Assembly (NCBI RefSeq): GCF_000243115.2
Contig: NZ_CP007035.1
Coordinates: 310,001 to 374,000 of the forward strand
Source: Niabella soli DSM 19437
GTDB lineage: Bacteria; Bacteroidota; Bacteroidia; Chitinophagales; Chitinophagaceae
DNA: 64,000 nucleotides
Reading direction: 5' to 3'
The position numbers were made by a program, and so were the translations under genes. This document shows positions 18,794 through 43,634 of the stretch, one piece after another. The notes beneath the pieces were generated by a model. That model was not told where the DNA came from. It was given only the letters and a program-made list of their open reading frames with translations, and made no database searches. Position 1 is the first letter of the stretch, and each line of letters opens with the position of its first letter.

Positions 18794-19546
18794 ATGAGCA
18801 AACGGAAGGGGCGCCTGCGGAATGTCAATATTGTAAGGAAGTTTGTTCATTTTACAGTGGGGATGTTTACCTATCCCGGTATTGCCCTGTTCAATAAATT
18901 AAGAATACAGGGCATAGAAAATCTGAAAGACCTTCCTTCACACAACGTTTTATTTGTAAGCAATCATCAGACTTACTTCGTGGATGTGATCACTTTTTTT
19001 CACATCCTTTCCGCCCGTAAATGGGGGAAGAAGGAACGGTTGGGTCTGCCGTATTACCTGTTAAACCCTTATACCCGCGTGAACTATGTAGCAGCCGAAC
19101 AAACGATGAAAAGCAGTTGGCTGAGCCGCCTGTTTTTATTGGCGGGCGGGCTAACGGTGAAACGCACCTGGAATGAAAACAGCAGTGAAAAGCGGACCGG
19201 GCTGGATCCTTCTGATACCCGTAAAATACAACGCGCTTTAGACAGCAATTGGGTGATCACTTTTCCCCAGGGAACCACAACGCCCTATGCGCCCGCGCGG
19301 AAGGGAACTGCTTTAATCGTAAAACATCACAAGCCCATTGTTATACCTGTGATCATTAACGGGTTTTCCAGGGCATTCAATAAAACGGGGGTGGGAATGA
19401 AACGCAGGGGGAGCCTGCTAACCGTTACCTTTAAAGCACCTTTGAAAATTGACTACGAGGCATCCACCAACGACATCACGGATCAGTTGATGAATGCTAT
19501 TGAGCAAAGCAAAAAGTTTATGCCGGAAGTGTTGAAAGGTGAATAG
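18794..19546 (+). CDS. PlsC-like lysophospholipid acyltransferase
   Basis: This 250-residue membrane-associated enzyme resembles 1-acylglycerol-3-phosphate acyltransferases, which build phosphatidic acid. Block I reads SNHQTYFVD, so five residues rather than the usual four separate His and Asp. Block III reads TFPQGTTTP where FPEGTRS is usual. The region TVKRTW may correspond to the substrate-binding block. The altered blocks suggest a divergent subfamily, possibly with another acceptor such as an ornithine or glycine lipid. The gene stands alone. Confidence 0.8.
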   Translation: MSKRKGRLRNVNIVRKFVHFTVGMFTYPGIALFNKLRIQGIENLKDLPSHNVLFVSNHQTYFVDVITFFHILSARKWGKKERLGLPYYLLNPYTRVNYVAAEQTMKSSWLSRLFLLAGGLTVKRTWNENSSEKRTGLDPSDTRKIQRALDSNWVITFPQGTTTPYAPARKGTALIVKHHKPIVIPVIINGFSRAFNKTGVGMKRRGSLLTVTFKAPLKIDYEASTNDITDQLMNAIEQSKKFMPEVLKGE

Positions 19547-19940
19547 TCAATAGTCAATAGTCAATGGTGCATCAACGTCATTTCCCTAAGCGGGGATTCC
19601 CGGGAAGGTAGAATAAGGAATATTGAATTAGAAATGCAAAAGGGTGTAATTTCAATAACATTCAATGTTCGTTCCTTTTGATGCTTGTATTAACTTCCCC
19701 GCAAAACGAAAAATCAGAGACAAGAAATAAAGAGCAGGAAAAGGGAGCGTGGTCGCGGCAAATTTTCTCATCGTCCAGATAGATTATCCCGTCGCCCTGA
19801 CCGGAGCGGAAGGGAACTCCCTCGTCAAACAAAGGTCTGAAAATTTCGTTGTGAGAGCGGATCTTCGTAGAGATGTCTCCCTCCCGGTCGACATGACGAA
19901 AGTCGTTCCCCGGGATCGACGCAACGGAGCTTTCTAAATG
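19547..19940. other. Gene-free region with short repeats
   Basis: Right after the acyltransferase stop, AATAGTC is repeated three to four times (19544-19567), a word also seen at 44616-44646. The rest contains palindromic stretches such as GGGAACTCCC near 19813 and a hairpin-prone G/C block at 19850-19930 (ccctcccggtcgacatgacg). A 62-codon open frame at 19749-19937 has no coding character. No gene recognised. Confidence 0.55.
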
Positions 19941-20303
19941 CTAGCTTCTTAAAATTTTATCCATTTTTCGTCCTTTGGCTAATTCGTCCACCAGCTTATC
20001 TAAGTATCTTACTTTTTGCGTCAATGGATCTTCGATTGCTTCGACCCGGTAGCCGCAGATAACGCCGGTGATCAAATGCGCATTGGGGTTCAGTGTCGCT
20101 TTCTCGAAAAAGGTTTCAAAAGACGCCTTTTCGTCAATCAGTTCCTGCAATTTCTTTTCATCAAAACCCGTCAGCCATTCTATAACCTGGTGCAGCTCTT
20201 GTTTGGTCCGGGCCTTTCCTTCCACCTTTTTTACATAATGGGGATATACTGATGCGAAGCTCATCTTAGCGATTCGTTCATTGTGCTCATTAGTTATTTT
20301 CAT
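19941..20303 (-). CDS. DUF2200 family protein
   Basis: The 120-residue product matches DUF2200, a small cytosolic family of unknown function found across bacteria. Family landmarks are ERIAKMSFASVYPHYV, TKQELHQVIEWLTGFDE and the C-terminal KVRYLDKLVDELAKGR. The start at 20303 (MKITNEHN) is chosen over one at 20369, because the family begins just before NERIAKM. It has no clear operon partner; decayed genes lie upstream. Confidence 0.85.
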   Translation of the reverse strand: MKITNEHNERIAKMSFASVYPHYVKKVEGKARTKQELHQVIEWLTGFDEKKLQELIDEKASFETFFEKATLNPNAHLITGVICGYRVEAIEDPLTQKVRYLDKLVDELAKGRKMDKILRS

Positions 20304-20446
20304 GCGTTTATTTTTTAGCATTGCCAACCGATTGTTGTCAGCCTGTAAAGATGTGATCCATTGCCACAAATTTAGTGAATTGAAGGGTGTCTTTGTACCC
20401 TACAATGTTTTGTATAAGTAGGGCTAAGCCTGCAATACTAATGTTT

Positions 20447-20701
20447 TCAGAAATCGATATCCTGAAGTGTCCGTTTGGGGAGGTTTTTAAAAACCTTATG
20501 CGGAAGTTTGGTTTGAGGGTTGATAATAGACCAGATGGTCAAAAAAACAATCCAAAAATCGACCTTGTTGTGCATGTTATATACCTGTTGCAGGGAGCCC
20601 TTAATAATCAAGGCAAATCCGGCAAAGAGCAGCAGGAGCATTACTACTATTATGGCTGCGATAGTAAGAAGGGGGCTTGGGCGGTATCCATACAACAGCA
20701 A
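20447..20701 (-). CDS. Possible small membrane protein
   Basis: An 84-codon frame starting at a TTG contains two hydrophobic segments, one long (LLTIAAIIVVMLLLLFAGF) and one around VDFWIVFLTIWSI. It overlaps the end of the decayed membrane protein gene in another frame. It may be a real small gene, with a possible internal ATG before LLLLFAGF, or a chance frame in degraded DNA. Not recognised. Confidence 0.25.
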   Translation of the reverse strand: MLLYGYRPSPLLTIAAIIVVMLLLLFAGFALIIKGSLQQVYNMHNKVDFWIVFLTIWSIINPQTKLPHKVFKNLPKRTLQDIDF

Positions 20702-21294
20702 TTAAATGAATTATGATCACAATAAAATTAATAACCGAGAAAAAAAGCTCTAAGAAACGAAGTGCTGGTAGCTGCAGCCAGCAACTCTGTAATGCCGTTG
20801 TATAGGAACAAGATCAGCCAGCCCGAACAAATGAGCACGAGAGCATCTTTGTGCACGCCAAGGGTTAGATAAGGGATTCGGTAGCAAAGCAGGTAAAAAC
20901 AACACACAGAAAGGAGTGTGTCTCATATGATAAGGAAAACGGTGAACTCATCATCAGCATATCCCTGCAGATTCCAAGCAAATAACCATAATCCGGTCAG
21001 CAAGAAAAGGATGAGATACAATAACCGCGTAAACCGCTTATTGGGCGACCGGCGGACAGGCTGCTAGATGATGAGCAGTAAGTAAAGAAAAGCATAAATA
21101 GTATACCACGCAGCATTAAAACCACTGGGACTCACCGACAGAAAACTAACCAACTCTGCAATAAAGTTGGTCGATAAAATAATGATGAACGGGTGAAACA
21201 AGGAACGGGTCTTCCGCCATCGACTCCATCCAGCAAGGGCGGGGATCAAACTGGAAAACCCGCTGAAAACCGTTATTGCATACCAAATGTTCAA
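20601..21294 (-). pseudogene. Decayed multi-pass membrane protein gene
   Basis: Reading the minus strand from the ATG at 21292-21294 gives a hydrophobic protein (MNIWYAITVFSGFSSLIPA, later NKRFTRLLYLILFLLTGLWL). It is interrupted by an in-frame TAG at 21064-21066 and a TGA at 20923-20925. The frame then shifts at a run of seven A (20740-20746 on the plus strand), after which FSVINFIVIIHLIAVVWIP continues to a stop at 20601-20603. The pieces together suggest about six or seven membrane segments. The multiple lesions make it a pseudogene. Its family is not named here. Confidence 0.75.
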
Positions 21295-21334
21295 ACCAAT
21301 TTGTTTCTTGATCCCTGGTTTATTTTAATTGCAG

Positions 21335-21732
21335 TTACGGCTGGTTTAGAGGGCTGGGCTGCGGAGAGGTCGGTGAACAGCGGATCGATTGCTCTTCGAT
21401 ATCACCATCATCCTCGGGCAATCCGGAACCAGCAGCGGCCGAAGGTAAAATATCGTTGTTGCCGGCATCGGAACATACAAATACCGCATGCACGTAAAGT
21501 TCAATATCCATGCTATAGTAAATCCGCAGCGCCGCACAGCCAGGCTTTGCAAGCAGGTTTTCAATGGCGGCCCCTATCGAAGGTTTCGCTTAATGACAAT
21601 AGGTTTTTGTTTCGAAAGGCAGGCGCCAGAATTAACTCTTTGTCCTGACAGTAACGCAGCGTCATCTCCGCCGCAGTGGCTAGAGGGATGTTGTATATAT
21701 AGTGATCGTTTTCGATTACTATCTTTGGTATT
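21335..21732 (-). pseudogene. Frameshifted hypothetical gene upstream of the decayed membrane gene
   Basis: One minus-strand frame (IVIENDHYIYNIPLATAAE and LRYCQDKELILAPAFRNK) stops at TGA near 21566. The downstream frame (AIENLLAKPGCAALRIYYSM, then ELYVHAVFVCSDAGNNDILP) is offset by one base around 21577 and ends at 21335-21337. No ATG is present at the 5' end, where a stop lies eight codons upstream. It looks like a small cytosolic protein of about 125 residues that paired with the membrane protein downstream. Both have decayed. Confidence 0.7.
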
Positions 21733-43267: not shown

Positions 43268-43634
43268 AAGGATATCGCTTTATGACATAATTTTTTGTTC
43301 AACCGCCGCGTCTTTGCGTGTGGGAATTCGCTCTTTAATAACTGGATTTCTCATCCTCCTGACGTCGGATTCGAAATGACGGGTCAAACAAAGATTGGTC
43401 TGCGCAAATCTGTGCTTTCTGTGAGAGCTCTCTCCGCGCCGCTGCTCCTTAGCCCGATGGCTATCGGGACCGCGTGCAACCTTGCGTCTTTGCCCCTTAG
43501 CGTGGTTGCGTGATCCTGTGTCTTAGCCCCACTACGTGCAATTCCCTTGTATCTCAAACATCAAACTTTACACCTTAAACCTCGAACATGTCTAATAATT
43601 GCGTATTTTCGATGCCGATTAAGCAGAAAAAATT
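43268..43634. other. Intergenic region with dispersed repeats
   Basis: Between the divergent wza-like and accA genes lies a word of the TCTGCGCAAATCTGTG family (43399-43414), the 16-bp palindrome CCCGATGGCTATCGGG (43453-43468) and, just before accA, a run of AAAC-type words (43553-43588, tctcaaacatcaaactttac). G/C-rich simple words fill 43490-43545. No gene seen. Confidence 0.6.

Follow-up and report, generated by a model that had tools for sequence, protein, structure and literature searches.

Probable Remnant of a Four-Gene Signalling Operon Fused to a Sugar-Transferase Tail beside a Polysaccharide Locus of Niabella soli

Broken Reading Frames beside a Polysaccharide Locus

In the genome of Niabella soli (4,697,343 bp in a single contig), translation of a short minus-strand region beside a polysaccharide locus yields broken frames, which raises the question of what this region encoded when it was intact and how much of it has been lost. 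The window, that is, the whole 64,000-nucleotide stretch of DNA analysed here, was given a preliminary description in which two neighbouring genes had decayed together at 20601-21732. The region at 21698-20441 (minus strand) is very probably the decayed remnant of an operon of four genes, encoding a protein of about 120 residues (P120), a seven-helix membrane protein (MEM), a small histidine kinase (HK), and a NarL-type response regulator (RR), whose stump is fused to the tail of a sugar transferase gene. The extent first given was real but too narrow, since the relic also includes the kinase stump and the sugar-transferase tail. The decay is real, wider than noted earlier, and ordinary in kind, and the less ordinary parts are the uncharacterised operon and the chimeric junction. 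What is new is the four-gene context, the kinase stump together with the loss of the regulator, the chimeric junction with the sugar transferase, and the correction of one lesion.

Lesions in the Relic

Lesions were scored by multiple alignment against four relatives (G016, G014, G013, and G001), and the disabling lesions of the window copy are absent from all four. The P120 pseudogene (21335-21698, minus strand) has lost its start codon, ATA (21696-21698) standing in place of the ATG of G016 and G014, and carries an extra base near 21576 that brings the original frame to a TGA at 21561-21563; both defects had been recognised in the preliminary description. Moreover, three residues that are invariant in 21/21 family members have become Ser in the window copy, namely a Gly (21512-21514), a Pro (21374-21376), and the second Cys of the tail (21365-21367). 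In protein searches, the two P120 pieces still match at E 4e-31 and 2e-13, and the MEM pseudogene (20668-21294, minus strand, with an approximate 3' end) at E 2e-60. MEM is interrupted by the TAG (21064-21066) and the TGA (20923-20925) reported earlier, both of them absent from the four aligned relatives, and its frame is changed by a 17-bp deletion at 20780/20781. The frameshift had originally been placed at a seven-base homopolymer, but this run (A on the plus strand, 20740-20746) is gapless in all four relatives, which rules out a shift there; the deletion lies about 35 bp upstream of the run and the frame change is complete before it. A +1/-1 pair in MEM (20970/20951) turned out to be an artefact of pairwise alignment that disappeared in the multiple alignment and was not counted. 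Likewise, an apparent TGA inside the MEM genes of G001 and G013 is not a lesion, since those open reading frames stop at residue 214 and the alignment simply extends beyond that stop codon.

Downstream of MEM, the stump of the kinase gene (20565-20691, minus strand) begins with an ATG at 20691 and contains a 1-bp deletion near 20668, and its homology stops at about 20565, before the kinase core. The regulator does not follow, since fewer than 80 bp separate 20447 from the next gene, an intact DUF2200 gene (19941-20369, minus strand) that begins at 20369 and bounds the relic on the left. A genome-wide search of N. soli with the G016 RR gave 16 matches, of which the best is a 43% paralogue at 4.61 Mb and the others reach at most 33%, and therefore no such regulator is found elsewhere in this genome; the regulators of G016 and G014 are 74% identical. 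The window copy thus has neither the kinase core nor the regulator that define a two-component system. In addition, no Rfam family matched at gathering thresholds within window 17000-45000.

A sequencing or assembly error in otherwise intact genes could produce lesions of the kind seen in P120 and HK, two of which are single-base indels, but it would also have to account for the two premature stops created by substitution, the 17-bp deletion, the changes at three invariant residues, the truncation of HK, and the absence of RR. The genome report (PMC3569382) lists a finished assembly from 454 and Illumina reads at 136.6x with an error rate below 1 in 100,000; taken at that figure, about 0.01 errors would be expected in 1.1 kb. 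Such an error is so improbable that it can practically be set aside, and the earlier view of several independent lesions rather than sequencing error holds, all the more so as intact homologues exist.

The Intact Operon in Relatives

A DNA search of 39 genomes, including that of N. soli itself, gave matches in 7. The longest match outside the window, in Niabella sp. BIN26 (G016), is 70% identical at the nucleotide level over window 20565-21718 and extends to about 20 bp upstream of the P120 start; all other matches span at most 310 bp, and G016 is the closest relative. Its stretch encodes a 120-residue P120, a 222-residue MEM, an HK in two frames, and a NarL-type RR. The G016 kinase (L071:1784-2545) is interrupted by a frameshift immediately ahead of the phospho-acceptor box; the record is a draft MAG, which may contain an error here.

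Protein searches widened this distribution, with MEM in 26/149 and P120 in 34/149 genomes, the N. soli genome included in both counts; the intact homologues that the preliminary description had proposed to look for in relatives were therefore found. Among 20 stretches chosen from the MEM and P120 hits, 17 carry the four genes in order on one strand, two of these with part of HK or MEM masked, and the three misses are G016 with its frameshifted HK, a second G001 copy whose P120 is cut by the contig end, and G094, in which RR lies on the opposite strand. A scan of named genomes, overlapping the chosen set by five loci, gave hits to all four genes in order and on one strand at 19 of 22 loci (18 with a full-length HK); of the three exceptions, one lies at a contig end and is missing P120, and two are Chitinophaga loci in which no MEM was detected. 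The operon is also present in N. drilacis. The relic retains the gene order and strand of these intact homologues. The module described at first as a pair of genes had indeed decayed, but its size was underestimated, as relatives have four genes and the window keeps a stump of the third without the fourth.

The Junction with a Sugar Transferase Gene

At about 20565 the kinase homology gives way to the last 40 or so codons of a bacterial sugar transferase of the PF02397 type (20441-20565, minus strand), identified by homology to genes of G013 and G006. The tail is 63% identical to the G013 gene over 48 residues, and its nucleotide alignment with the complete G006 gene scores 101, with 30 as the best of 200 base shuffles. 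No PF02397 match is obtained at the window tail itself, where only the C-terminal end is left and the catalytic domain is absent. The G006 gene, with PF02397 at 151 bits, closes a run of polysaccharide genes, and a DUF5715 gene comes next (L092); by analogy with this arrangement, the transferase would have been the terminal gene of the neighbouring polysaccharide locus. The position beside that locus was correctly given from the start, and a transferase that was probably part of it is damaged as well. The G013 gene (L093:2891-3841) lacks its N-terminus, has a helix-turn-helix (HTH) gene in its place, and carries a frameshift. This HTH gene is related to one on the side of the module in G016, G013, G001, G010, and G004, and a search of the N. 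soli genome, run without a positive control, did not detect the HTH gene seen next to the module in some relatives.

Across the junction runs an 84-codon open frame (20447-20701, minus strand) that joins the kinase transmembrane helix in frame with the sugar-transferase tail. The relic might still be partly expressed, either by readthrough of stops or as this fused membrane peptide, and the single open frame kept by the fusion speaks for it. Nevertheless, the P120 start codon is gone, several unrelated lesions lie upstream, the kinase core and the regulator are missing, and the genome contains an intact paralogous operon, all of which make residual expression very unlikely; the 84-codon frame is probably not functional.

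As for the origin of the junction, this copy carries point lesions in P120, MEM, and HK, and it probably also suffered either a deletion or a break during rearrangement that took away RR entirely together with the remainder of HK and the greater part of the sugar transferase, leaving two stumps that are fused at about 20565. In another form of the same explanation, the junction did not arise by deletion; instead, an incomplete, broken copy of the module was relocated into the sugar transferase gene, where it later decayed. Such a move would suit a left flank that is rearranged across G016, G010, G011, G008, and G001, and among the relatives compared none was found with the module beside a sugar transferase. 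Against it, homology to G016 continues for about 20 bp beyond the start of P120 on its upstream side, and all the pieces share one strand and follow one another as a simple deletion would leave them, so that a moved copy is possible but falls short of being probable.

The Flanks and the Polysaccharide Locus

The rearranged state of the left flank can be traced in the relatives. After the acyltransferase gene, G016, G010, and G011 share the same other gene, G008 and G001 have different ones again, and DUF2200 lies elsewhere in relatives, thus marking the left flank (window 19546-20369) as a rearrangement point. On the other side lies the polysaccharide locus (21818-43213, minus strand), of the Wzx/Wzy type, with genes for an SLBB export protein, Wzz, a UDP-sugar dehydrogenase, a DegT aminotransferase, a flippase, an O-antigen-ligase-like polymerase, glycosyltransferases, and a pectate-lyase-like protein. 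No PF02397 sugar transferase occurs within 21818-43213, so the locus is without an initiating transferase of its own. The polysaccharide stretches of G001, G013, G008, G004, and G003 resemble the window in their head genes, and in two cases also in WbpG-HisH-HisF, and none of these stretches gave a sugar transferase hit.

The rest of the N. soli genome has a single PF02397 match, which lies at 240 kb in a different polysaccharide cluster, and two PF00953 genes, one of which is presumably MraY. Since these genes are present, the polymer of the locus could be started by an enzyme encoded elsewhere, as far as gene content indicates. In this respect the relic has a modest importance beyond its own decay, as it predicts that the polysaccharide locus of N. 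soli either relies on an initiating enzyme from another locus or has ceased to make its polymer.

Two repeats were also observed in the window. A short repeat of about 50-60 bp lies at 43319-43487 and recurs at least five more times in N. soli and at least nine times in G016; a CRISPR-like array of 16 units of about 77 bp occupies positions 1-1300; one CRISPR is listed for N. soli in the genome report (PMC3569382).

History of the Relic and a Paralogous Operon

In nucleotide trees, the P120 and MEM of the window cluster with their G016 counterparts (split support 93.5/89 and 88.4/88, respectively), and the window side has the longer branches (window versus G016, 0.35 versus 0.13 for P120 and 0.29 versus 0.23 for MEM). 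Differences to G016 at the three codon positions (0.24/0.13/0.49 for P120 and 0.26/0.19/0.39 for MEM) resemble those of intact pairs, and therefore most of the divergence predates the decay and the loss cannot be called old. In two other genes compared between the N. soli genome and G016, third positions differ by 0.30-0.31, less than in the relic (0.39-0.49).

The preliminary description had suggested loss of the module, which is right for the relic copy only, and not for the genome, where a divergent, intact paralogous operon remains at about 4.61 Mb (G000:C1:4612134-4614516; L070:2635-5017). The P120 of this operon shares 75% identity with the G016 protein and pairs with it in the protein tree (99/95), whereas identity to the G016 counterparts drops to 31% for MEM and 43% for RR. 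In nucleotide trees, this P120 stands beside those of the window and G016, weakly in IQ-TREE (63.7/63) and with 0.989 in FastTree, and this MEM falls with those of G001b and G004 (100/100), a placement that the protein tree leaves unresolved. From these sequences the operon looks like a mosaic, on moderate evidence, combining a P120 near the G016 type with a divergent MEM and RR.

Predicted Function of the Intact Operon

Intact relatives encode a kinase with phospho-acceptor and ATPase domains and a regulator with receiver and DNA-binding domains, as in two-component systems. The kinase of the paralogous N. soli operon exceeds the cut-offs for HATPase_c (28.1 bits) and HisKA_3 (26.2 bits), the G016 kinase fragment falls just under both, and the G016 regulator has Response_reg and GerE domains. 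The first two proteins fit no named family over cut-off. A Pfam search of 19 MEM and 21 P120 members gave nothing better than E 0.016, and an NCBIfam search of one member of each gave no match over cut-off. The structural model of P120 is of moderate confidence (mean pLDDT 75) and yields chance-level matches only in a fold search against solved structures. That of MEM has seven predicted helices (mean pLDDT 90), and its Foldseek matches, which include GPCRs and rhodopsins, are weak, the best having E 0.061 and none reaching E <= 0.001. This relic thereby exposes a conserved four-gene signalling operon, the first two of whose proteins matched no named Pfam or NCBIfam family over cut-off, which gives the locus a further modest importance.

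The gene neighbourhood of the module points to what it may control. SusD-like genes occur near 17/37 module loci versus 0/19 control stretches and AraC-type genes near 14/37 versus 2/19 (best-scoring query), counted after dropping five duplicate loci and against controls that consist of the other fetched stretches and the window rather than a random sample. Recurrent neighbours comprise SusC/SusD, AraC-type regulators, MauE/DoxX-like and TlpA-like genes, and small open reading frames, one of which comes near DUF6520, just under cut-off; a limited literature search found no paper on DUF6520.

From these domains and neighbours, a sensing role governing SusC/SusD loci would be a reasonable reading. 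We infer for MEM, together with the small transmembrane HK, the detection of a signal at the membrane, and for P120 perhaps a part as ligand or accessory subunit; HK would then phosphorylate the NarL-type RR, which would switch nearby genes, often a SusC/SusD uptake locus. Joined with the history of the relic, this suggests a speculative and, taken whole, rather unlikely scenario, in which an operon of the Chitinophagaceae, undescribed as judged by family libraries, would pass signals from a lysine-free, rhodopsin-like receptor of seven helices and from a small protein whose tail carries two cysteines to a minimal kinase in control of SusC/SusD uptake loci, and in which the N. soli P120 would have been exchanged into the paralogous operon before the original decayed along with the initiating transferase of the polysaccharide locus.

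Comparison with Known Systems

MEM is like microbial rhodopsins and the GPCR-like fold in its seven predicted helices. Retinal proteins carry a lysine in helix 7, and the corresponding MEM stretch has none in any of 19 sequences, which rules out MEM as a microbial rhodopsin or other retinal protein. With respect to a PF02397 sugar transferase that ends a polysaccharide locus, the tail in the window matches the C-terminal end of the 224-residue G006 gene product, but the window keeps only about 40 codons of it. Compared with systems of the HisKA_3/NarL type, such as LiaS, MctS-MctR, and NarX-NarL, the operon kinase is short (about 250 residues) with only an N-terminal membrane segment before its core, it is preceded by two unnamed proteins, the NCBIfam equivalog scores of the intact operon are far below cut-off, and the window copy is a kinase stump with no regulator; nevertheless, like those systems, the intact operon encodes a HisKA_3 and HATPase_c kinase together with a receiver-GerE regulator.
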